Under the pieces are notes generated by a model. The model saw only the letters and a list, made by a program, of their open reading frames with translations. It was not told where the DNA came from and did no database searches. A DNA stretch of 64,000 nt from Parabacteroides distasonis ATCC 8503 (GTDB lineage: Bacteria > Bacteroidota > Bacteroidia > Bacteroidales > Tannerellaceae). Positions 17,567 through 29,880 of the stretch are shown one piece after another. Each line of letters opens with the position of its first letter. The stretch's first letter is position 1. The DNA is taken from assembly GCF_000012845.1 (NCBI RefSeq), contig NC_009615.1, forward strand, positions 4,404,501-4,468,500, in the 5' to 3' direction. The position numbers and the translations under genes are program-made.

Positions 17567-18499
17567 ATGAATGAGAATGATTTTGTGGTGGGTGTACTTA
17601 CGTATATCACCTGCCTGCGTGAGAAAAAGCGTTATTCCACGGCGAAGAGTTATCAAGATGCGTTGAGGTCGTTTAAATGTTTTTGTGGCCGGAAAGAGAT
17701 TCCTTATGCGTATATTAATCGGGATACACTTTTGCGTTATCAATCTTGGCTGTTGGCCAAGGGATGTGCTCGTAACACGGTATCTACTTATATGCGCCGG
17801 ATTCGTCACATCTATAATTTAGCGGTAGAGGTGGGTGAGGCTGCCTATATCCCTCATTTGTTTAAGAATGTGTTTACGGGGGTTGAGAGTAAACGTAAAA
17901 AGGCGTTGCCTTCGGAAAGCCTGCGCTTGCTGATGACAAGCCCAGTGACAGATCCGCAACAGAAGAGGACTCAATCAGCCTTTTGCCTGATGTTTTTGTT
18001 TTGCGGGATGGCTTTCGTAGATTTGGCGCATTTGCGAAAGGAGGATATCAAGGAAGGGATCTTGTCTTATTATCGGCAGAAAAGCGGATCCCTTATACAG
18101 GTGGAGATCCCAGCGGAGGCACAAGGGCTGCTGAATGAGTTGGCAGCCGATACAACCGAGGATTCGCCCTATCTGTTTCCATTTTTAGAGGGAATGAAGA
18201 CCGGTGAGGATGCCTACAAGGAATATAATACCGTATTAGGAGGTTTTAACCGCAGATTGAAAACACTGTCGGAATCCATCGGTATTCGTACTCGGGTTAC
18301 CTCATACACGATTCGTCACTCTTTCGCCACGACCTTGAAGGAGCAAAACGTACCGATTGAGATGATCAGTGAACTGTTAGGGCATAAATCTATCAAGACT
18401 ACGCAAATATACTTGAAGAGTTTCTCTTTAGAAAAGCTCTCGACCGTAAACAAACTTTGTTTCGAGAGTGTGTATAATTATGCGCCGAAAGTAGGGTGA
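17567..18499 (+). CDS. Tyrosine site-specific recombinase (capsule-linked)
   Basis: 310 residues. A SAM-like N-terminal core-binding domain (1-100) precedes the catalytic domain with the second Arg and His in TIRHSFATTLKEQ, His in LLGHKSIKTTQIYL and the nucleophile Tyr in that same stretch. At the first-Arg site, where many Bacteroidetes integrases read RGM, this one reads CGM (FCGMAFVDLAHLRKEDI), so the first Arg is missing or displaced. It ends 11 bp before the first 17-bp inverted-repeat site at 18510. That placement makes it the likely enzyme for inverting the segment upstream of the capsule operon. Confidence 0.9.
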   Translation: MNENDFVVGVLTYITCLREKKRYSTAKSYQDALRSFKCFCGRKEIPYAYINRDTLLRYQSWLLAKGCARNTVSTYMRRIRHIYNLAVEVGEAAYIPHLFKNVFTGVESKRKKALPSESLRLLMTSPVTDPQQKRTQSAFCLMFLFCGMAFVDLAHLRKEDIKEGILSYYRQKSGSLIQVEIPAEAQGLLNELAADTTEDSPYLFPFLEGMKTGEDAYKEYNTVLGGFNRRLKTLSESIGIRTRVTSYTIRHSFATTLKEQNVPIEMISELLGHKSIKTTQIYLKSFSLEKLSTVNKLCFESVYNYAPKVG

Positions 18500-18509
18500 A
18501 GAAAAGTAC

Positions 18510-18526
18510 GCTACTTGGCGAGTAGC
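18510..18526. repeat. Left inverted-repeat site of the putative invertible segment
   Basis: GCTACTTGGCGAGTAGC, itself two 6-bp arms (GCTACT/AGTAGC) around a 5-bp asymmetric core. It is the exact reverse complement of the copies at 18845 and 18872. The arm-core-arm form is typical of a tyrosine recombinase crossover site. Confidence 0.85.
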
Positions 18527-18571
18527 GCTCATTTCATGCCGCAAATGTAGTAAAAAATAACATAACACAAG

Positions 18572-18600
18572 CAAATATTAGGCTTTGTTTGTGTTTCAAC
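18572..18600 (-). promoter_or_regulatory. Weak leftward promoter candidate inside the invertible segment
   Basis: On the minus strand TTG (18597-18599) is followed after 17 bp by AATATTTG (18572-18579), one base from TAnnTTTG. Spacing is slightly short, so this is tentative. Inversion of the segment would turn it toward the UpxY-like gene. Confidence 0.35.
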
Positions 18601-18719
18601 CTTAATTCTCTTTAAATCTTCGTTCTTATTTCTGATGTATAGACATGGCAATAGAAACGAAATGGCCTCGTTATTCCCGAAATCATCACGTTATCCAAAG
18701 TAAACTCCATATAACATCA

Positions 18720-18811
18720 TGTAGAGATGGAGCGTGCTCCGTCTCCCACCGCCTGATAGTAACTAAAATACCATTGTAAGGGGATGAAACGGGACACGCT
18801 CCGTCTCTACA
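18720..18811. repeat. Palindrome-bounded element, second member of the TGTAGAGA family
   Basis: 92 bp with 17-bp terminal inverted repeats (TGTAGAGATGGAGCGTG and its complement, one mismatch). Its left end is also locally palindromic. The ends match the arms of the 30-bp palindrome at 3703-3732. It could be a small non-autonomous or REP-like element; no ORF of its own is convincing. Confidence 0.65.
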
Positions 18812-18844
18812 ACTAAGGAATATCCTTTCACTCCTCTTGTTAAG

Positions 18845-18861
18845 GCTACTCGCCAAGTAGC
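18845..18861. repeat. Right inverted-repeat site, copy 1
   Basis: GCTACTCGCCAAGTAGC, exact reverse complement of the site at 18510 and a direct repeat of the one at 18872. Recombination with 18510 would invert about 350 bp. Confidence 0.85.
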
Positions 18862-18871
18862 AGTCAGTTTG

Positions 18872-18888
18872 GCTACTCGCCAAGTAGC
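18872..18888. repeat. Right inverted-repeat site, copy 2
   Basis: Second direct copy of GCTACTCGCCAAGTAGC, 27 bp from copy 1; the match extends to GGCTACTCGCCAAGTAGCA. Having two right-hand sites allows two nested inversion lengths or a 27-bp deletion. Confidence 0.85.
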
Positions 18889-19001
18889 ATGAGTATTGAA
18901 GGGATGCAAATTTTCAGTAATTCCTTTTTATTTTCACATAAGTGTTTATTTATCAGGGTATTACAAGAATATCTTGGTAAGGCTCTGAATTATCTTCCTC
19001 A

Positions 19002-20099
19002 ATGAATATCATGACAAGTAATAGCTCTGATAGAGCTATGGTGCATATACGCAATCGCCGTAGTCAGGAGGCTGTACGCTGGTACGCACTGACGCTTCCT
19101 ACCGCCATAGGGGGACGTGATAATATCTATTCGTCAAAAGGATTAGATGCCGAGCTTTCCCGTCGTAAACGTTGTGGGGAACCCTTGTTCGAGTACTTTG
19201 CCCCCTCGTATGTCGAGGCTCGCAAGGTGGGAGGCAAGATGGTCAATACGAGGAAGCCTCTTTTATACAACTATGTGTTTATCCATGCTTCGGAGAATGA
19301 GATTTTCCGTTTGAAACGTATCATGCCCTTATATAATCTTCTTCCTCGGGTATCCGTGGGCGAACACTCTTATTTCCCTTACCTGTCAGATCATGAGATG
19401 GAGACCTTACGCTGGATGGCAGAATCTTATTCCAATGAGCTTCCGGTGTACGTACCGGATAGCGGTCGCTTGCTGAAAGGTGACCGTGTACGTATCACCT
19501 CGGGTTCTTTCATGGGGATGGAAGCTGAGGTGGTGGTGCAACCGGGTGGAGGTCATAAGGATGTCATGGTACGTATCCTTGACTGTATGTGGGTTCCTCT
19601 ATTTGAGGTAAGGCAAGGCGAGTATGAGCTGATTGAGTTGAATACGAAAGGCAAGCATGTTTATACCCATTTGGATAACGATCGTTTATCGGAAGGTATG
19701 CACAAGGCGTTGGGGCGTTATTATCTCTCGGGCAAATTGGGAAAGGAAGACGAACTTTTGGTTCGTGAGGTGCTGAAGGGCTATGCTTCCCTTCGTGTGG
19801 AGACCGACGTGATGCGTTGCAAGGTCTACTCATTACTCCTTCCGGCCTATAAGCTGTTGGCTCAGGAAGAGGAGTTTGAACGCTTGCATTCCACCCTACG
19901 CAATATGCTTCCATTGGTTAAGGCAGTGAATTCTCGTGCCTTGCTGCTCGTCACGCTTTACGGCTGCACGAATAGCAACCTGTATTACCGTATGGCGCAT
20001 GAGCTGGTAGATCCCTGGCGGGATGACCCTTCGCCTAAGAGAAGCAAGGCCTTGTTGATACAGCGTTTACACGATTACGATATTTGGCTAAAACATTAA
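19002..20099 (+). CDS. UpxY-like NusG-family transcription antiterminator with long C-terminal extension
   Basis: 365 residues. The NGN domain occupies about 25-130 (VRWYALTLPTA, FAPSYVEAR, KPLLYNYVFIHA) and a KOW motif lies at about 155-185 (LLKGDRVRITSGSFMGMEAEVVV). UpxY proteins let RNA polymerase read through the 5' end of their own capsule operon. Typical Bacteroides UpxY proteins are only about 170-180 residues, so the helical C-terminal half (about 200-365) is an addition. It is the first gene after the invertible segment, and the 113-bp leader between them would be its site of action. Confidence 0.85.
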   Translation: MNIMTSNSSDRAMVHIRNRRSQEAVRWYALTLPTAIGGRDNIYSSKGLDAELSRRKRCGEPLFEYFAPSYVEARKVGGKMVNTRKPLLYNYVFIHASENEIFRLKRIMPLYNLLPRVSVGEHSYFPYLSDHEMETLRWMAESYSNELPVYVPDSGRLLKGDRVRITSGSFMGMEAEVVVQPGGGHKDVMVRILDCMWVPLFEVRQGEYELIELNTKGKHVYTHLDNDRLSEGMHKALGRYYLSGKLGKEDELLVREVLKGYASLRVETDVMRCKVYSLLLPAYKLLAQEEEFERLHSTLRNMLPLVKAVNSRALLLVTLYGCTNSNLYYRMAHELVDPWRDDPSPKRSKALLIQRLHDYDIWLKH

Positions 20100-20112: not shown

Positions 20113-20502
20113 ATGAGAAAGGAAAGCGAAACTCCCTCCGGTATCCGTTTGATGCTATTGCTGAAAGGGCATTTGAGAGAGATCATGAATCGTGAGTGTG
20201 CGAATCAGACCTCGATCCATTTATATTGTACGGGATCTTATTGGGTCGCGTTCGAACGTTCCGCTTATCAATTGCGTCGTGCCTTTCCGGATAGTGAGAT
20301 CACGCCGATGCGCCTGTACGCTTATCCTTTTCCGGTTGTCATGGTTTCCGTAACGGATCGTTCCCTTCGTTTGTATGAACGAAAACATATAGCTAAGCAG
20401 AACGGGGCGGATTACAAGTTATTGACTGTACCTGAACTCTCCGCTCCCGCCTACCAAGCGTGGCATACGAGGGAGGTGAAGGGACTCCCTGCGTTAAACT
20501 AA
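20113..20502 (+). CDS. Conserved small protein of the capsule leader module, unknown function
   Basis: 129 residues, no signal peptide or membrane segment. I do not recognise a domain; the visible pattern (LLLKGHLREIMNRE, YCTGSYWVAFERSAYQLRRAFP, PVVMVSVTDRSLRLYERK) suggests a compact alpha/beta protein. It starts 13 bp after the UpxY-like gene, so it is co-transcribed with it. Its position is where Bacteroides loci carry UpxZ, an inhibitor of competing UpxY proteins, but I see no sequence basis for calling it UpxZ. It overlaps the end of the convergent amidase by 4 bp. Confidence 0.65.
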   Translation: MRKESETPSGIRLMLLLKGHLREIMNRECANQTSIHLYCTGSYWVAFERSAYQLRRAFPDSEITPMRLYAYPFPVVMVSVTDRSLRLYERKHIAKQNGADYKLLTVPELSAPAYQAWHTREVKGLPALN

Positions 20503-20909
20503 TCGGAAAACTCGTTCACGACATTAAAACAGGGACAGGATTTCGACGGGTCCAAGTCTTGATGTCCCACGATTAGGGCTTTGGGGAATCGCTGATGCAA
20601 TTCACGAAGCAAACCCTGTAGGGCTTCTCGTTGGGCTTCCGTTCGGGTATCCATGGGAGTCTTTCCATCGTTGGCGAGTCCTCCGATATAGCAAACCCCG
20701 ATACTGTACCGATTGTGGTTCTTACAGTGAGCGCCCACTTGTTCAAGGGGCCTACCGGTCTCGATCGTACCATCGGTCGGGATGACAAAGTGATATCCGC
20801 AGCCTTTCCAGCCGAGAGAGCGATGCAGATGGTCGATGTCCATCATCCGTAAAGTGCTGCCCTGCCTATTGGCAGAGCAATGCACGATAATCAGCGTGAT
20901 GGTTCTCAT
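20499..20909 (-). CDS. N-acetylmuramoyl-L-alanine amidase (Amidase_2 type)
   Basis: 136 residues from the ATG at 20909 (MRTITLIIVHCSANR), which overlaps the stop of the upstream small gene as ATGA; an in-frame ATG at 20918 is also possible. Zinc ligands and core motifs are clear: IIVHCSA, GYHFVIPTDGTIETGRP, SIGVCYIGG, and GHQDLDPSKSCPCF. There is no signal peptide. The fold cleaves the muramoyl-alanine bond of peptidoglycan. Such amidase genes on the strand opposite to capsule operons are frequent in Bacteroidales and may be prophage-derived. Confidence 0.9.
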   Translation of the reverse strand: MRTITLIIVHCSANRQGSTLRMMDIDHLHRSLGWKGCGYHFVIPTDGTIETGRPLEQVGAHCKNHNRYSIGVCYIGGLANDGKTPMDTRTEAQREALQGLLRELHQRFPKALIVGHQDLDPSKSCPCFNVVNEFSD

Positions 20910-21010
20910 CCGATCCAACCGCTAGTGGCTCCACCGGCGGCACCGGTGATGACCAGTTCGACAATGCGGATGATGTAGAGCAAGACGCTCTTCCAATTTG
21001 TTTTTTTCAT
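20906..21010 (-). CDS. 34-residue smalltalk-like peptide
   Basis: Starts MKKTNWKSVLLYIIRIVELVITGAA and ends with a Gly/Ala/Ser-rich tail. The pattern (MKKxNW, one hydrophobic helix, small-residue tail) matches the very short 'smalltalk' proteins that accompany HU-like and amidase genes in Bacteroides. Its stop overlaps the amidase start (ATGA), so the two are translationally coupled. A membrane or holin-like role is only a guess from the single hydrophobic helix. Confidence 0.7.
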   Translation of the reverse strand: MKKTNWKSVLLYIIRIVELVITGAAGGATSGWIG

Positions 21011-21080
21011 ACTTGTAGTCTTTAAATAAATGAATAAAATAAGCTTCATGGTTAAGAGCCGTATTTCTCAATGGCAGGAT

Positions 21081-21569
21081 TTAGATCTCATCGGGAGATT
21101 CTGAGTCTCCTTTCTTCAACGCAGCCAAGTCTACCGTGTCTTTATTCTCCTTTACCGCCTTCAGCGAGGCGGCTTGGATCGCACGGCTGGTTACTAGGTT
21201 GAATTCAGCCTTAGAACGTAGGTTCTCGAAGTCTATACCCGGATTGAATAGAATGTTCACCGCCTTGATATTATCGCTGGAGAAGTCCTTGAGTGTAGCG
21301 GCCGGCTCGCAGGTGATGGAGATACTAAAGATTCCTAGTTCGCCGAATTGTACCTTGTAGCCGTTCAGCAATTGTTCCACTAGACATGAGCAGGTGTCGC
21401 TTACCACGCCTTTTACCGTGCCGCGTGTGAAAACACCGTTGTGATCTGAGATGTGCTTCACGAAATCATCGAAACTCATCACTTTCGTCACTTGGTTCTT
21501 GGCGTACGCCTGTTCCTTTGCGGTCTCATCCAGTGGACTTTTCCACATGTAAGTTGAATAATTAATCAT
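21081..21569 (-). CDS. HU/IHF-like DNA-binding protein of the capsule leader module
   Basis: 162 residues from the ATG at 21569 (MINYSTYMWKS), preceded by an AAGAAG ribosome site; the longer reading to 21662 crosses an A-rich leader and is less likely. The N-terminal two-thirds has the HU-like pattern (FDDFVKHISDHNGVFTRGTVKGVVSDTCSCLVEQLLNGYKVQFGELGIFSISI). Its C-terminal tail is acidic, unlike true HU. It sits upstream of the smalltalk-like peptide and amidase on the same strand, a recurrent trio beside capsule loci. Role in capsule control or DNA architecture is inferred. Confidence 0.75.
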   Translation of the reverse strand: MINYSTYMWKSPLDETAKEQAYAKNQVTKVMSFDDFVKHISDHNGVFTRGTVKGVVSDTCSCLVEQLLNGYKVQFGELGIFSISITCEPAATLKDFSSDNIKAVNILFNPGIDFENLRSKAEFNLVTSRAIQAASLKAVKENKDTVDLAALKKGDSESPDEI

Positions 21570-21702
21570 ACTTCTTTTTTTTAAAAGATTAAACTTATTG
21601 TTGACAATGCGAAAGTACAACCCCCGGATAGCGAAATCAAATCCGTTGATAACCGTTGACAAACTGTTTACTTTTCATTGACAAACGATTCATATATACC
21701 TT

Positions 21703-22265: not shown

Positions 22266-22502
22266 ATGACAGAAAACCATGAGCGGGCGGAACAAGCACG
22301 TTTCGTCTTCCATATCTACGGTTGCAATGTGCAGATCGTGCCCAATGCAACCCATGCGATCCAAATCATCCACCAAGGTGATGGTACGATCTTGCGGACG
22401 GAAAGCTGTATTACGCCCGCCGCTTCGGGACGCCACGAGTCACAGGCACCGCCGTTGGGAAAAGTTAGGGCACTGAATATAAAACAAACAAAATACAAAT
22501 GA
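22266..22502 (+). CDS. Conserved small protein, paralogue B (short)
   Basis: 78 residues. The N-terminal half aligns with the preceding gene's product (G-N-QI-PNAT-AIQ), while the helical second half is missing. Its stop overlaps the start of the 4,6-dehydratase gene by 4 bp (ATGA), which supports translation and ties it to the biosynthetic operon. Competing ORFs in the other frames lack this homology. Function unknown. Confidence 0.6.
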   Translation: MTENHERAEQARFVFHIYGCNVQIVPNATHAIQIIHQGDGTILRTESCITPAASGRHESQAPPLGKVRALNIKQTKYK

Positions 22503-24433
22503 TGGATTTTCATAAGGGCAGATGGCGATTGGCCTTAGGCCGTCTGGTGAATTTGCGGTATATCAACCGTTGGATCATTTTTAGTGCGGACCTTTTCGTC
22601 TCGCTCTCCGTATCGTTGCTGGGCGTACTAGGAATGTTCTCCATTCTGCATATACGTATTGGAGAGTCTGATGTGCTGAAAGTGGGCCTCTCCTCATTTG
22701 TGAGCAGTATCGTTTCGTTCTTGCTGTTCAAAGCATATCATGGGGTTATTCGCCATTCCACGCTGCGTGGCTTGTGGCGGATCGGTGGTGCTGCGATCGG
22801 CAAGTCGCTCTTGATGTTCCTGCTGCTTTGGCTGTTGAAAGCCCGTTTCAGCCCTTCTATCTATTGGTTGGGTGGAATCATGGACAGTACGTTGACGATC
22901 GTGATGTTGGTCACGTTGCGTGTCTTCGTGATCAATGTCTATAACAGCGTCCTCCTGCAACTCGGTAAGAAACGCAAGCGGGTACTGGTCTTTGGCACGG
23001 AGGAGGAGAGCGTGATGATCGCCACATCGGCGAACCGTCAGGTATTCATGCAGAATTATAGCATCATGGGCTTCCTTTCCTTTGGTAATTCCAAGAAAAG
23101 CATCCGGATTGCGGAGTTGCCGGTCTACCAGATCGAGAACGTGGAGGATCTGTATCGCTTGATCCCTCGCAACAGCTTGGATGGCGTTCTCTTCCCCAAT
23201 ATAAAGGTTGCCCATCAGGAGCGTGACCGTTTGATCCGTTATTGCGAGCAGGCCTCTTTGAAGACATTGGTAGTCCCGGAGATGGAGGAGCTACGTGGAG
23301 GTGAGGCGAAACGTTCCGTCCGAGAGATCCGTATCGAGGATTTGCTGGGTCGTGAGGAGATCCATATTAATCTGGACGAAATCGGCAATCTGTTGGAAGG
23401 GAAGACCGTGCTTGTCACGGGAGCCGCCGGCAGTATCGGTAGCGAGATCTGTCGCCAGCTGGCTCATTTCCCGATTAAGAAGTTGGTTTGCTTCGACTCC
23501 GCCGAGACTCCGATGCATAATCTCCGTCTGGAATTGGAAGAAAAATATAAGGGACTAAACTTTGTCCCGGTGATCGGCGATGTCCGTAGCCCGGACCGTG
23601 TGGATTATGTGTTCCGCAACTGGCACCCCCAAGTAGTGTTCCATGCGGCGGCCTACAAGCATGTCCCTTTAATGGAGGAGAATCCCTGCGAGGCGATCCG
23701 AACAAACGTGTTCGGTACTCGTGTGATGGCGGATGCCGCTGTAAGCTATGGTGTGGAGAAATTTGTGATGATCAGTACGGATAAGGCGGTGAACCCCACG
23801 AACATCATGGGCTGTAGCAAGCGCTTGGCTGAGATCTATGTACAGAGTCTGAGCCTTGCGATCGAGCGAGGAGAGGTGAAAGGCGAGACGCGTTTCATTA
23901 CGACCCGCTTTGGAAACGTATTGGGTAGCAACGGTTCGGTTATCCCCCGTTTCCGGGAACAAATCGCTCAGGGAGGTCCAGTGACGGTCACCCATCCCGA
24001 TATCATCCGTTACTTTATGACTATCCCGGAGGCTTGTCGCCTGGTGTTAGAGGCCGGTACAATGGGCAAGGGTGGTGAGATCTTTATCTTCGATATGGGA
24101 GAGCCGGTGAAGATAGCGGATTTGGCGAAGCGCATGATCGAGCTGTCCGGATTACAGGTAGACAAAGACATCGAGATCAAGTACACTGGTCTCCGCCCCG
24201 GTGAGAAATTGTATGAAGAGCTACTGAACAACAAGGAGAACACGAAAGAGACCCCTCACGAGAAGATTCGAGTGGCGGCGGTTCGTGAGTATGACTATAA
24301 GGATGTGGTAGAACATATCAATGTGTTAACGGAATTGTCCCTCCGTGTTCAGATCCTCTCGATGGTAAAGGAGATGAAAGCCTTTGTCCCCGAGTTTAAG
24401 AGTCAGAATTCTCAGTTTGAGGAGTTGGATTGA
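22499..24433 (+). CDS. Membrane UDP-HexNAc 4,6-dehydratase (PglF/WbpM/CapD type)
   Basis: 644 residues. Four membrane segments (about 20-125) are followed by a CoA-binding-like Rossmann region and the catalytic SDR domain: NAD motif VTGAAGSIGSEI and the SMK-type active site (MISTDKAVNPTNIMG). Members of this group convert UDP-GlcNAc to UDP-2-acetamido-2,6-dideoxy-4-ketohexose. With the aminotransferase at 45241, the PglD-like acetyltransferase at 41271 and the PglC-like transferase at 40647, it would supply the first sugar of the repeat unit. First biosynthetic gene of the operon. Confidence 0.92.
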   Translation: MMDFHKGRWRLALGRLVNLRYINRWIIFSADLFVSLSVSLLGVLGMFSILHIRIGESDVLKVGLSSFVSSIVSFLLFKAYHGVIRHSTLRGLWRIGGAAIGKSLLMFLLLWLLKARFSPSIYWLGGIMDSTLTIVMLVTLRVFVINVYNSVLLQLGKKRKRVLVFGTEEESVMIATSANRQVFMQNYSIMGFLSFGNSKKSIRIAELPVYQIENVEDLYRLIPRNSLDGVLFPNIKVAHQERDRLIRYCEQASLKTLVVPEMEELRGGEAKRSVREIRIEDLLGREEIHINLDEIGNLLEGKTVLVTGAAGSIGSEICRQLAHFPIKKLVCFDSAETPMHNLRLELEEKYKGLNFVPVIGDVRSPDRVDYVFRNWHPQVVFHAAAYKHVPLMEENPCEAIRTNVFGTRVMADAAVSYGVEKFVMISTDKAVNPTNIMGCSKRLAEIYVQSLSLAIERGEVKGETRFITTRFGNVLGSNGSVIPRFREQIAQGGPVTVTHPDIIRYFMTIPEACRLVLEAGTMGKGGEIFIFDMGEPVKIADLAKRMIELSGLQVDKDIEIKYTGLRPGEKLYEELLNNKENTKETPHEKIRVAAVREYDYKDVVEHINVLTELSLRVQILSMVKEMKAFVPEFKSQNSQFEELD

Positions 24434-24472
24434 ATACTTACAAACGTAAAAATAATTGACTAAAAATAACGA

Positions 24473-25618
24473 ATGATGGAATTTAAGCGGAATATACTTA
24501 TAACAGGAGGAGCCGGATTTATTGGTAGCCATGTGGTGCGCCTGTTTGTGAACAAGTATATTGATTGTCATATCATTAACTTGGATAAATTGACATATGC
24601 TGGGAATTTGGCAAATCTTAAGGACATAGAGAACAGGCAAAATTACACTTTTGTAAAGGCTGATATTTGCGATTTTATAAAGATTCAAGAGTTAATGGTG
24701 CAATATGAAGTGGACGGTGTGATTCATTTAGCAGCAGAAAGCCATGTGGATCGGAGTATCAAGGATCCGTTCACTTTCGCTCGAACGAATGTGATGGGAA
24801 CCCTATCCTTATTACAAGCGGCCAAATTGTATTGGGAATCGCTACCTGAAAAATATGAAGGTAAGATGTTTTACCATATCTCAACGGATGAGGTTTATGG
24901 TGCGTTAACCATGAGTCATCCGGAGGGAATAGAACCGCCATTTATCACTACCGCTTCCTCGGGTGGGCATCACCATGCCTACGGAAAGGATTTCTTTTAT
25001 GAGAATACCAAGTATAACCCACATAGTCCATACTCCGCAAGTAAGGCGAGCAGTGACCATTTTGTTCGTGCATTCCACGATACCTACGGGATGCCGACTA
25101 TTGTGACTAATTGTAGTAATAATTATGGCCCTTACCAGTTCCCAGAGAAGCTGATTCCCTTATTCATTAATAATATTCGTCATCGCAAACCCCTGCCTGT
25201 TTACGGAAGAGGCGAGAATGTGCGGGATTGGTTGTTCGTTGAAGATCATGCCCGTGCCATTGATTTGATATTTCATCAGGGTAAGGTTGCGGATACCTAT
25301 AATATAGGGGGCTTCAATGAATGGAAGAATATTGATATCATCAAGGTGATCATTCGTACCGTAGACCGTTTGTTGGGACGTAGGGAAGGAGAGGATATGG
25401 ATCTCATCACTTATGTAACCGACCGTTTGGGACATGATGCTCGGTATGCCATTGATTCTACCAAATTGCAGAAAGAACTAGGTTGGGAACCTTTATATCA
25501 ATTTGAAGAAGGTATTGAAAAGACCGTAAAATGGTATTTGGAGAATCAGGAATGGATGGATAACATCACGAGTGGGGAGTGTGAGAGGTATTATGATTCT
25601 ATGTACAACGGTAGGTGA
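24473..25618 (+). CDS. rfbB: dTDP-glucose 4,6-dehydratase
   Basis: 381 residues. NAD-binding GGAGFIGSHVV, the HLAAESHVDRSI segment, catalytic Thr/Asp/Glu in HISTDEVYG, and Tyr-Lys in YSASKASSDHFVR are all present. It makes dTDP-4-keto-6-deoxyglucose, the substrate of the two ketoisomerase-like genes that follow. No rfbA (thymidylyltransferase) is in the window, so that step must come from elsewhere. An insertion near 150-175 (HPEGIEPPF...GGHHHAYGKDF) is typical of Bacteroidetes RfbB. Confidence 0.95.
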   Translation: MMEFKRNILITGGAGFIGSHVVRLFVNKYIDCHIINLDKLTYAGNLANLKDIENRQNYTFVKADICDFIKIQELMVQYEVDGVIHLAAESHVDRSIKDPFTFARTNVMGTLSLLQAAKLYWESLPEKYEGKMFYHISTDEVYGALTMSHPEGIEPPFITTASSGGHHHAYGKDFFYENTKYNPHSPYSASKASSDHFVRAFHDTYGMPTIVTNCSNNYGPYQFPEKLIPLFINNIRHRKPLPVYGRGENVRDWLFVEDHARAIDLIFHQGKVADTYNIGGFNEWKNIDIIKVIIRTVDRLLGRREGEDMDLITYVTDRLGHDARYAIDSTKLQKELGWEPLYQFEEGIEKTVKWYLENQEWMDNITSGECERYYDSMYNGR

Positions 25619-26046
25619 GAAAATATATGGATAACAAGCCGGTAATAATAGAGCTACCCAAGTTTTTAGATAAGCGGGGTAATCTTTCCTTTGTAGAGGA
25701 ATTCCAGCATGTTCCATTCAAAATCGCACGTAGTTATTGGATATACGATGTGCCGGGAGGGGAAGTGCGTGGAGGTCATGCCTATAAGAAGAATGAAGAG
25801 TTTATCATCGCATTGTCGGGAAGTTTTGAGGTTCATATTGATGATGGGATACGACAACAGACATTCCTGTTGAATCGATCCTATTACGGACTTTATGTGC
25901 CCAAAGGGGCTTGGAGGGAAATGGTCAATTTTTCAACAAACTCATTGGCCTTAGTTTTAGCGTCTATCCCTTATAGTGTGGATGATTATATATACGATTA
26001 TCAAGAATTTAAAAATTATACTCATGCGAACATCCAGTGTTTATGA
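25615..26046 (+). CDS. FdtA-like dTDP-4-keto-6-deoxyhexose 3,4-ketoisomerase, copy 1
   Basis: 143 residues from a GTG at 25615 that overlaps the rfbB stop; the ATG at 25627 (MDNKPVIIEL) is an equally good start. A single cupin of the WxcM/FdtA family with RGNLSFVEE, YDVPGGEVRGGHAYK (metal/substrate His) and GLYVPKGAWREM. FdtA or QdtA moves the keto group from C4 to C3 so an aminotransferase can make a 3-amino sugar. A near-identical second copy follows directly. Confidence 0.88.
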   Translation: MRKYMDNKPVIIELPKFLDKRGNLSFVEEFQHVPFKIARSYWIYDVPGGEVRGGHAYKKNEEFIIALSGSFEVHIDDGIRQQTFLLNRSYYGLYVPKGAWREMVNFSTNSLALVLASIPYSVDDYIYDYQEFKNYTHANIQCL

Positions 26047-26443
26047 TTGTACAATGATAGAGCTTGATAAACATCATAGCGACCGAAAAGGAAACTTAAC
26101 AGTAGTAGAGAACCTAAAGACTGTCCCTTTTGATGTGAAACGCGCTTATTATTTGTATGATGTCCCTGGTGGTGAGAGTCGTGGTGGCCATGCGCATAAG
26201 GAGCTAAGCCAATTGATTATTGCTGCAAGTGGTAGTTTTACGGTTACATTGGATGACGGAAATGTAAAACGAACTTTCCATTTGAACCGTCCTTATCAAG
26301 GGCTTTATATCGTTCCGGGTATATGGCGTACATTGGATGATTTTTCTTCGGGTTCTGTATGCTTGGTTTTGGCTTCGAATGGGTATGATGAGGGGGATTA
26401 TATAAGGGATTATGATAAATTTTTAGAATTTAGGAGAGATTAG
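26024..26443 (+). CDS. FdtA-like 3,4-ketoisomerase, copy 2
   Basis: 139 residues from the ATG at 26024 (MRTSSVYDC), overlapping copy 1 by 23 bp. The cupin motifs RKGNLTVVEN, YDVPGGESRGGHAHK and GLYIVPGIWRTLDDFSSGSVCLVLAS are more canonical than in copy 1 (HAHK against HAYK). The two copies may have opposite stereochemistry (Fuc3N or Qui3N route) or act as a heteromer. The aminotransferase at 27488 is the expected next enzyme. Confidence 0.88.
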   Translation: MRTSSVYDCTMIELDKHHSDRKGNLTVVENLKTVPFDVKRAYYLYDVPGGESRGGHAHKELSQLIIAASGSFTVTLDDGNVKRTFHLNRPYQGLYIVPGIWRTLDDFSSGSVCLVLASNGYDEGDYIRDYDKFLEFRRD

Positions 26444-26485
26444 TATTTTGTTTTTCATTGTGATAAATCTGCTAATTTTAATATA

Positions 26486-27454
26486 ATGAATAATAATCAA
26501 ACAAGAGTCTTGATTACTGCAATAGGTACAATGAATTGTACAACTATAATAAGTGAATTAAAGAAGGCTGAAGAGGTTTTTTATGTGATTGGAGCTGATA
26601 TAAATGGAAAATATAGTATTGCAAATTCCAATGAAGTTGATGAATTTTTTCAATTTCCCTCTGTATTACATGATAGGGAAGGTTATGTTCAATATCTACT
26701 GAATTTTTGTAAGGAACATAATGTAGAGGTGTTTTTTTGTGTGGTAGATGAAGAAGTTGAGGTTGTTGCAAAACATAAAGAAGATTTTAATGCTATTGGT
26801 ATTACATTGTGTCTCGCAAATATAGATGCTATAATTACTTGTCATAATAAGAATTTATTTGCAGAATGGTCGGAAAAAAATATCGCAAAATATTGTATAA
26901 AGAGATATGAAAATATAACGGATGTTAATAATGATAATTTTCCAATATTTATCAAACCTGTTGAGGGAAGAGCTAGTATAGGATGCAGAAAAATTGAAAA
27001 TATGGAAGAGCTGTGGAAGTATGCTAGTGTTTGGGATAATTATATTGCTCAAGAATATGTGACAGGTGAAATTGTTTCTGTTGACATAGTCCGTAATAGA
27101 AAAACAGAGCAATTTGAGGTTGTTCAAAAATTAGAATTACTCCGCAATAGTAATGGGTGTGGTATTGCGGTGGAAATTGTAGATATTCCTGAAATACGAC
27201 AACTCTGTTGTATAATTGCAGATATCTTTAATTTGAATGGTGTGATAAATGCAGAATTTTTCATAACCAATAAAGGCCTAAAAATCATAGAAATTAACCC
27301 TAGGCTTCCGGCTGGTATTGAATATTCATGTATGGCTGGTTTGGATGTTGTGCTTAATGCTTTGCGTATAGCTCGTGGAGAAGCTTGTATTTTTAAGGAT
27401 ATTAAAATAGGAGCTCATTATGCAAAAAGATATGAAACGTATGAGATAAAATAA
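26486..27454 (+). CDS. ATP-grasp ligase of the capsule locus
   Basis: 322 residues. A Rossmann-like N-terminal domain (VLITAIGT) precedes an ATP-grasp fold with FPIFIKPVEGRASIGCRKI (P-loop-like Lys region), YIAQEYVTGEIVSVDIV and the metal-binding GLKIIEINPRLP. Members ligate a carboxylate to an amine using ATP, like CarB or PylC. In a capsule locus it may couple an amino acid or other acid to an amino sugar. The gene is markedly more AT-rich than those before it, so the imported cassette may begin about here. Confidence 0.85.
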   Translation: MNNNQTRVLITAIGTMNCTTIISELKKAEEVFYVIGADINGKYSIANSNEVDEFFQFPSVLHDREGYVQYLLNFCKEHNVEVFFCVVDEEVEVVAKHKEDFNAIGITLCLANIDAIITCHNKNLFAEWSEKNIAKYCIKRYENITDVNNDNFPIFIKPVEGRASIGCRKIENMEELWKYASVWDNYIAQEYVTGEIVSVDIVRNRKTEQFEVVQKLELLRNSNGCGIAVEIVDIPEIRQLCCIIADIFNLNGVINAEFFITNKGLKIIEINPRLPAGIEYSCMAGLDVVLNALRIARGEACIFKDIKIGAHYAKRYETYEIK

Positions 27455-27487
27455 TGAATCATAAGAACAACTTAAAGTATAAATAAT

Positions 27488-28591
27488 ATGATTCCATTTC
27501 TTTCATTAAAAGATTTGACTGCTCTTCACGCAGAGGAGATTCACGAAGTTGTGTGTCGTGTGGTTGATAGCGGTTGGTATTTACAAGGTAAGGAAAATGA
27601 TACTTTCGAGACTAACTATGCCAAATATATAGGAACAGGGTATTGTATTGGTTGTGCAAATGGTCTTGACGCACTTATATGGATATTCCGAGCGTACATT
27701 GAATTGGGCGTGATGAAACCTGGTGATGAGGTGATTGTTCCTGCTAATACCTATATAGCTACGATTTTGGCAATAACAGAAAATGGTTTGAAGCCGATTT
27801 TAGTAGAGCCGAAACTCAATACGCTTGAGATTGATGAAGACTTGATAGAAGAGGTCATTACGCCTAGAACGAAAGCTATTGCCATTGTCCATTTGTATGG
27901 ACGTATAGCTTATACGGAGAAAATCGGAACGTTATGCAAAAAGTACGATCTGAAATTGGTGGAGGATTGTGCACAAAGTCATGGTTGTTTCTATCAAGAT
28001 GGACGTATGACTGGCAACTTGGGGGATGCGGCAGGCCATAGCTTTTATCCGGGTAAGAATTTAGGGGCATTGGGTGATGGCGGTGCGGTGACGACGAATG
28101 ATAAGGAATTAGCTGTAGCCATCCGAGCGTTGGCCAATTATGGAAGCCAAAAGAAATACGTATTTAAATATACGGGACGTAATAGTCGTTTGGATGAAAT
28201 CCAAGCAGCCGTGTTGGACGTGAAGCTAAAATATTTAAAGGAAGACAACGCCCACAGAAAGATGATCGGAAAATATTATATAGATCATATAAACAATCCG
28301 CATATCAATTTTCCGGATACGCTTCCTGAAGAGCAAAATGTATTTCATCTTTTTCCGGTATTTTGCGAAAGGCGGGATGAGCTCCAAGCTTATTTAACCA
28401 AGAATGGAGTAGGTACGGTTATACATTATCCGATTCCTCCTCATAAACAGGAGTGTTATAAGCAATGGAATGAACTAGCATTCCCGATAACAGAACAAAT
28501 AGCCTCACAAGAATTGAGCTTGCCTATAAGTCCTGTATTGACAATAGAGGAGGCAACTTATGTGGTAAATGTATTGAATAAATGGGAATAG
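27488..28591 (+). CDS. FdtB-like sugar aminotransferase (DegT/DnrJ/EryC1 family)
   Basis: 367 residues of the PLP-dependent aspartate-aminotransferase fold. The PLP lysine lies in [16 protein letters not shown], with VEDCAQSHG and the DGLDALIW-like N-terminal motif. Close kin (FdtB, QdtB) transaminate dTDP-3-keto-6-deoxyhexoses. Directly after the ketoisomerases, this gives dTDP-3-amino-3,6-dideoxy-galactose or -glucose. Its stop overlaps the flippase start by 10 bp. Confidence 0.93.
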
Positions 28592-29880
28592 TTCATAAAA
28601 TTCTCTCTTTCAGCCAACGGACATTAAAGGCGGACATCGTAAAAGTCTTTTCCTTTACAGCCATGTCTACCGTGGTAAAGATGCTTACGGGGCTGATTAG
28701 CGTTAAAGTGGTAGCCTCAATAATTGGTCCTTCTGGAGTGGCTTTAGTGGGACAATTGAATAATTTCGCTACAATTGCGATGTCTTTAGCCAGTGGAGGT
28801 ATCAATAACGGTATCACCAAATACGTGGCTGAATATAAAGAGGATAAAGAGAGAATCAAGGACTGCTTATCGACTGCGTTGCAGATCACGGCTGTCTGTT
28901 CATTACTTGTTGGTACTTTTTTGATTCTCTTCAACTCTTATTTAAGCAAGGTCATCTTATTATCACCGGATTATAATTACGTTTTTATCATATTTGGTTT
29001 TACAATCTTATTGTATGCTTTAAATCTAATGTTAATCTCGATTCTTAACGGGTTTAAGGAATTTAAGAGATATGTAAGGATTAATATTGCCAATAGCGTA
29101 ATAGGCTTGATTTTCACATTGTCATTTGTTTCTGTTTTAAGATTGCCCGGTGCTTTGATCAGTGCCGTGACCTATCAAAGCATTATGTTCTTTATTACGC
29201 TTTGGATGATGCGGAAATTACCTTGGTTTACATGGGGTAATTTTAAGCGGAAGATAAACGGTACCTTGTCGAGGAAATATATGCACTATACCTTGATGGC
29301 GCTTACTACAGCGGCTACGGTACCTGTTTCCCAAATGTTGTTGAGAGGATATGTGATTTCAGAGATATCGCCTGTAGAAGCAGGTTGGTGGGAAGGCATG
29401 AACCGGATCTCTCACATGTATCTGATGGTGATTACAAGTTCGTTTTCTGTTTATTATTTGCCACGCCTTTCGGAATTGAAGGATTCTGTTGAGATCAAGC
29501 GGGAAATAGTGAAGGCTTACAAAGTGATTGTTCCGATGTTGTTGGTCGCTTTTACTTTGGTTTACCTGTTGCGTACTGTCATGATCCGTATTCTTTTCAC
29601 ACCGGAGTTCTTGCCGATGGAGAATCTGTTCTTTTGGCAATTGGCTGGAGATTTTTTTAAGATATGTAGTTGGCTGTTATCTTTCTTACTGGTCGCTAAA
29701 TCTATGACAAAAGCATTTGTATCAACAGAAGTGTTGTTTTCTTTGAATTTTGTGATATTGGGTTTCTTGTTTATGCGTATGAATGGTGTAGTAGGAATCA
29801 ATCAGGCGTACTTGGTGAATTATGTGGTGTATTTGATTTGTATGGTTTTTATTTTTAGAAGAATATTGTATGTAAAATAG
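28582..29880 (+). CDS. O-antigen/capsule flippase (Wzx type)
   Basis: 432 residues with about 12 hydrophobic segments in the MATE/PST arrangement and the N-terminal pattern [20 protein letters not shown]. It should move the undecaprenyl-linked repeat unit to the periplasmic face of the inner membrane. It belongs to the WzxE-like branch with intact FAT and [14 protein letters not shown] motifs. With the Wzy-like gene at 31431 it marks a Wzx/Wzy-dependent pathway. Confidence 0.92.

Follow-up and report, generated by a model that had tools for sequence, protein, structure and literature searches.

A predicted invertible-promoter phase switch, assembled OFF, upstream of a capsular polysaccharide locus in Parabacteroides distasonis ATCC 8503

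The stretch analyzed here, 64,000 nucleotides of P. distasonis ATCC 8503 (NC_009615.1, positions 4,404,501 to 4,468,500; "the window"), very probably carries a phase switch that works by DNA inversion and serves a capsular polysaccharide locus, and the assembly captures that switch in what the predicted promoter's direction, away from the capsule genes, well supports as the OFF state. In the mechanism that we propose, a tyrosine recombinase would grip the common 6-bp arms at the left site and at one of two right sites, and strand exchange across the 5-bp core between them would flip the segment that carries the promoter. As assembled, the promoter would point at the recombinase gene's 3′ end; inversion would place it roughly 23 bp from the right site, where it would drive a UpxY-like gene, whose antitermination would then carry transcription into the capsule genes. 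That inversion occurs in ATCC 8503 itself, and that the predicted promoter is in use, is what we infer from comparison with related loci.

The switch is delimited by a 17-bp site, GCTACTTGGCGAGTAGC, at 18510-18526 (plus strand), whose reverse complement recurs at 18845-18861 and 18872-18888 (both minus strand), all three copies being exact. Each consists of a 6-bp arm (GCTACT), a 5-bp core (TGGCG) and a second 6-bp arm (AGTAGC), and sequence matching confirmed both the three positions and the arm-core-arm palindrome with an asymmetric, non-palindromic core that a sequence-only reading of this DNA had reported. No perfect 17-bp inverted pair arose in 3000 random sequences that a first-order Markov model generated from the surrounding 600 bp. 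Across the whole 4.81-Mb genome, GCTACTYGSCRAGTAGC matched only the three sites of the window, and its reversed control had 0 matches. A looser arm pattern, GCTACTNNNNNAGTAGC, matched 19 places in the same genome versus 1 for the reversed control, and these 19 places fall in nine loci, each with a recombinase of the family found in the window. Within the genus, an arm-pattern site is present in 5 of 38 genomes, one of which (G020) has a single site. Twelve stretches of viral contigs each held one isolated site without a partner and were taken as chance, and the GenBank phages searched with the invertible segment gave no match.

Directly to the left of the sites lies the gene of a 310-amino-acid tyrosine recombinase (17567-18499, plus strand; PF00589, E 6.7e-19; PF13102, E 1.6e-16), the presumed invertase. 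R250, H273 and Y282, which we take to be the catalytic R-H-Y of the C-terminal domain, are invariant in an alignment of ten such sequences, as expected of a tyrosine recombinase. Where Arg I would be expected, this protein has Ala149; Ala or Ser occupies that position in every one of the ten aligned recombinases, and four of these come from ON loci. Recombinases 59-97% identical to it adjoin the other switches. None of 23 translated recombinase frames contains an internal stop codon, and among 20 frames examined (60 bases looked at) only that of locus C87 in NM39_I3 lacks a start codon. At this ON locus (L080), a TGA stands just before aligned residue 6 of the recombinase, and no start was seen.

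Between sites 1 and 2 lie 318 bp (18527-18844), and the distance between sites 1 and 3 is 345 bp. The segment holds no ORF of at least 80 amino acids in our ORF list, which bears out the earlier claim of a non-coding segment between the tyrosine recombinase gene and the UpxY-like gene. A scan for E. coli-type promoters listed nothing inside it, so a Bacteroides promoter consensus was applied instead. A motif for Bacteroidota inverton promoters is mentioned in PMC11892184 (in part). With the Bacteroides consensus, a pair facing away from the capsule genes, as previously described, is indeed present as the Bacteroides-type CTTG-N18-TACATTTG; it occupies 18571-18542 of the minus strand, points left and is separated from the left site by 23 bp. 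The search expression was fixed after inspecting the loci, so this match is no independent test, and a match arises by chance in one such segment in 0.043 of Markov sequences, so it is not rare. The same expression has 17 matches across the whole window, so the one at 17996 (plus strand), which lies outside the sites within the recombinase gene and faces the capsule genes, may be a chance match; a transcription start there is a candidate too. No Bacteroides-type match was found in the conserved leader of 113 bp (18889-19001, plus strand; aligned with three relatives) that leads from the switch to the UpxY-like gene.

The segment also contains a dispersed palindromic repeat (18720-18812) predicted to fold into a long hairpin on either strand (fold z -7.0 on the plus and -7.5 on the minus strand), for which 39 genome matches were listed, a count in which both strands of a single place score separately. 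Since the hairpin sits behind the promoter, it separates the recombinase gene from the UpxY-like gene whichever way the segment faces, and it may halt recombinase transcripts before they reach the capsule genes. In each of the nine segments of this genome, it is the half farther from the promoter that folds most strongly; in some relatives the fold is weak.

We called a locus ON when its promoter pointed away from the recombinase and OFF when it pointed toward it. By this rule, 14 of the 21 two-site loci, which come from four genomes, were OFF and 7 ON, and the nine loci of ATCC 8503 itself divided into 7 OFF and 2 ON. In 20 of 20 two-site loci (13 OFF, 7 ON) the promoter is set in from one site by 22-24 bp, as it also is in a 21st, C70 of Parabacteroides sp. 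ZJ-118 (OFF), although these 21 loci are homologous and hence not independent of each other. Two of the 21 were admitted by a loosened arm expression: C52 of ZJ-118 (both sites) and C43 of G023 (one arm base, right site).

Evidence for inversion comes from that C52 locus (L053/L073), an ortholog whose recombinase is 94% and whose UpxY-like protein is 93% identical to those of the window: both of its flanks are colinear with the window while the homologous segment is reversed, and its sites differ from ours by one arm base, the change being identical in both. The flipped state that the sequence-only reading had proposed to seek in related genomes was thus found in relatives. Likewise, another ZJ-118 switch exists in two copies, at C36 and C44, whose segments are 98.6% identical over 350 bp and run in opposite directions; their downstream flank remains colinear (98.2% identical over 339 bp). 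The ortholog in NM39_I3 (C106, recombinase 97% identical) is OFF, as is the window. Both orientations therefore exist across species and paralogs, and an invertible promoter of the recombinase type, oriented OFF as first proposed, is well supported by the ZJ-118 ortholog together with the paralogs. The other loci have segments of 237 to 328 bp, apart from one that measures 2891 bp. This last segment, at 4644k in ATCC 8503 (L046, 3900-6700), contains an insertion element near the promoter, presumably of the IS21 type, with IstA/IstB-like ORFs; at 2.9 kb it keeps matching sites at both ends and is ON.

The same palindromes might instead be transcription terminators or regulator-binding sites with no role in recombination, which we regard as highly improbable. 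On the minus strand (18528-18508) the left site was listed as terminator-like with a T-rich tail, and visual inspection finds an A-rich stretch at the corresponding place of the orthologs L048 and L053. But shuffled sequences would be expected to give 2.1 terminator-like sites where three were found, the tail is not common to the paralogs (by eye), and the reversal of a segment that ends at the palindromes, between colinear flanks, would stay unexplained.

At the right end of the window's switch stand two sites in direct repeat, spaced by 27 bp. Compared with the NM39_I3 ortholog, the window is longer on the inner side by 27 bases, made up of an additional site and 10 bp, and because the outer site is colinear in the flank alignment with the single right site of that ortholog, the copy at 18845 reads as the extra one. 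The left site could pair with either right site. No three-site arrangement was found in the 22 other loci of the family, in 36 further loci (700 bases looked at) or at C70 of ZJ-118. One could argue from this that the repeats are a locked relic in ATCC 8503, with the doubled right site or a loss of activity blocking inversion and holding the locus OFF; the doubled site occurs only at the window among the loci examined, the close NM39_I3 ortholog is OFF as well, and the recombinase lacks Arg I. We consider this unlikely: all ten aligned recombinases have Ala or Ser at that position, the ON loci included, and the three exact sites, the open recombinase frame and the flipped ortholog all speak for a switch that can still turn. 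Moreover, the LC switch of Bacteroides fragilis has a duplicated repeat at one end, the effect of which is stated to be unknown (PMC3090145, in part).

Variation among the sites is concentrated in the core. Across 44 sites from 23 loci, the arms GCTACT/AGTAGC are close to invariant, the variable positions of the site being 7, 8, 10 and 11. The left core equals the right core in 20 of 20 two-site loci and in the 21st, core-pair counts from which the single-site loci C109 of NM39_I3 and a and b of G023 are left out. Permutation over the nine loci of ATCC 8503 gave p 1.3e-4 for core matching. These nine loci use five cores (TGGCG, TGGGG, TGGGA, CGGGA and TAGTG), and 6 of their 36 pairs, which fall within the groups 129k/648k/1873k and 1577k/1649k/4644k, have a core in common, so insulation between loci would be incomplete. 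Most orthologous pairs above 93% identity keep an identical core; on the other hand, recombinases that round to 100% identity at C44 and C50 of ZJ-118 stand at CGGGA and TGGGA, those of 485k in ATCC 8503 and C43 of G023 (95% identical) stand at TAGTG and TGGCG, and some recombinase pairs at only 53-69% identity share one core. The core thus does not simply follow recombinase identity. Because near-identical recombinases stand at different cores, we read the core as a probable homology check, tending to stop recombination between loci whose cores differ: the recombinase would read the arms, and the core would need only to match that of its partner. A variable core between constant arms is what this matching rule predicts, and under it the core would work as an address.

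Tentatively, we extend this to the view that the capsule switches of P. distasonis might form an addressed set, in which all recombinases grip common arms and the 5-bp crossover core alone picks the partner sites. Near-identical recombinases would then run separate switches, and loci that gained a common core could exchange promoters or rearrange. Drift under the matching rule would produce the same pattern as selection for separate addresses. A search of open-licence literature by title and the start of the abstract returned no paper on the core as an address. In ZJ-118, C44 and C50 (L077/L078) have different segments and antiterminator types as well as different cores, despite their near-identical recombinases; a long UpxY-like homolog (71%) is present at C44, and C50 has only a weak match of 28%. 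Within ATCC 8503, the capsule loci at 129k and 1873k (L169/L170) share a 6.2-kb match at 97.6%. Their recombinases are 64% identical, and it is within the invertible segment, at about the edge of the palindromic repeat (judged partly by eye), that windowed identity climbs from 76% to 97-100%, so that this pair appears to be a chimera of switch and operon.

The sequence-only reading had described a self-contained phase switch caught OFF. The switch and its OFF state are well supported, but self-containment does not follow, because this genome has nine paralogous recombinases at sites whose arms agree, and these enzymes might work in trans. It is quite possible, if short of probable, that one or several of these nine enzymes act in trans on all the sites, since the arms are common to all, in which case the adjacent gene would be one possible driver among others. 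The near-invariant arms over 44 sites favor such sharing, as do the 53-69% identical recombinases at the same core, the near-identical ones at different cores, and the ON state of C87 in NM39_I3, where the recombinase frame looks broken at its start. Against it, the 23 frames free of stops, with a start lacking in only one of 20, suggest that each locus keeps its own enzyme. We still take the adjacent recombinase as the presumptive flipping enzyme of the window's switch.

Beyond the right sites, the first gene of the putative operon encodes a putative NusG/RfaH-type antiterminator of 365 amino acids (19002-20099, plus strand), which matches the NCBIfam model antiterm_UpxY (NF033644) over residues 63-203. 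The match (E 1.5e-19) scores 70.6 bits, below the curated cutoff of 100, and so we call the protein UpxY-like only; it has no Pfam match. The same model matches all 13 aligned UpxY-side proteins, the window's included, at E up to 0.001, in an alignment that leaves out the proteins of L046, L040 and L044. These proteins, of about 365 amino acids, combine the RfaH/NusG-type part (63-203) with a conserved C-terminal extension of about 160 amino acids. A longer UpxY-like homolog adjoins 17 of the 21 loci, beyond the right site, and 8 of the nine in ATCC 8503. The four loci without a clear homolog are 485k, where none was found and a homolog of the UpxZ-position gene is present, C50 of ZJ-118, with its weak match, and C33 and C120 of NM39_I3, both at a contig edge. 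Antitermination by the UpxY-like protein would follow promoter activity.

Next comes a small gene of 129 amino acids (20113-20502, plus strand), named by its UpxZ position; its product has no Pfam or NCBIfam match, and homologs follow the UpxY-like gene in the paralogs. The regulators are separated from the capsule genes by an amidase gene and an HU-type gene, both encoded by the complementary strand (20499-21662), and amidase insertions are described in P. distasonis CPS loci (PMC9409006, in part). The first polysaccharide genes, which form the presumed controlled locus, follow at 22499-29880 (plus strand), where six ORFs have Pfam matches, to Polysacc_synt_2, GDP_Man_Dehyd, FdtA, ATP-grasp, DegT aminotransferase and Polysacc_synt.

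Switching of capsules is reported to be a principal means by which gut Bacteroidales coexist with phage (PMC12118408, in part). As orientation can be read from the sequence of these loci and variation falls in the core and not in the arms, the role of the core in keeping the switches of one genome apart can be put to the test, and the duplicated site makes its effect on switching rate or outcome testable too. The less ordinary features here are the constant arms with a locus-specific core and the doubled right site, seen only at the window among the loci examined.

As a kind, the switch is not new, since the system is in print for P. distasonis APCS2/PD, and the window's switch is a member of that published class of CPS invertible promoters. 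In that strain, the consensus GCTACTYRGNRAGTAGC flanks putative promoter regions of 314-345 bp and occurs at 10 of 12 CPS operons with an integrase upstream, and capsule expression shifts under phage (PMC12118408, in part). A search of the open-licence literature with the consensus string returned this paper alone. The window's GCTACTTGGCGAGTAGC fits GCTACTYRGNRAGTAGC in three copies; a site-specific integrase likewise lies upstream, with a NusG/UpxY-type first gene here, and our 318 bp (sites 1-2) and 345 bp (sites 1-3) compare with the published 314-345 bp, although that paper may count the repeats differently. Separate roles for core and arms and a doubled site, which we note here, are absent from the part of that account covered.

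Comparable systems exist in Bacteroides. The LC switch of B. fragilis, with Tsr19, also places a local tyrosine recombinase and an invertible promoter before a polysaccharide locus, and its repeat is duplicated at one end, as here, or at both ends in strain YCH46 (PMC3090145, in part); unlike the window's switch, it belongs to another genus and another gene cluster, and the two are likened by arrangement and not by site sequence. Bacteroides switches of the GTTAC...GTAAC kind share the arm-core-arm palindromes and core-matched pairs, with recombinases 45-49% identical to ours, but 7 of 8 multi-locus genomes use one core (over the part of each genome's switches covered), whereas five cores serve nine loci here. 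At surface-protein loci of B. thetaiotaomicron, the published consensus varies in the core too. The B. fragilis invertase Mpi is a serine recombinase, whereas a tyrosine recombinase adjoins each locus here, that of the window matching PF00589. Mpi acts as one global invertase for seven loci and, as we propose for the window's switch, flips capsule promoters between on and off (PMC12632263, in part).
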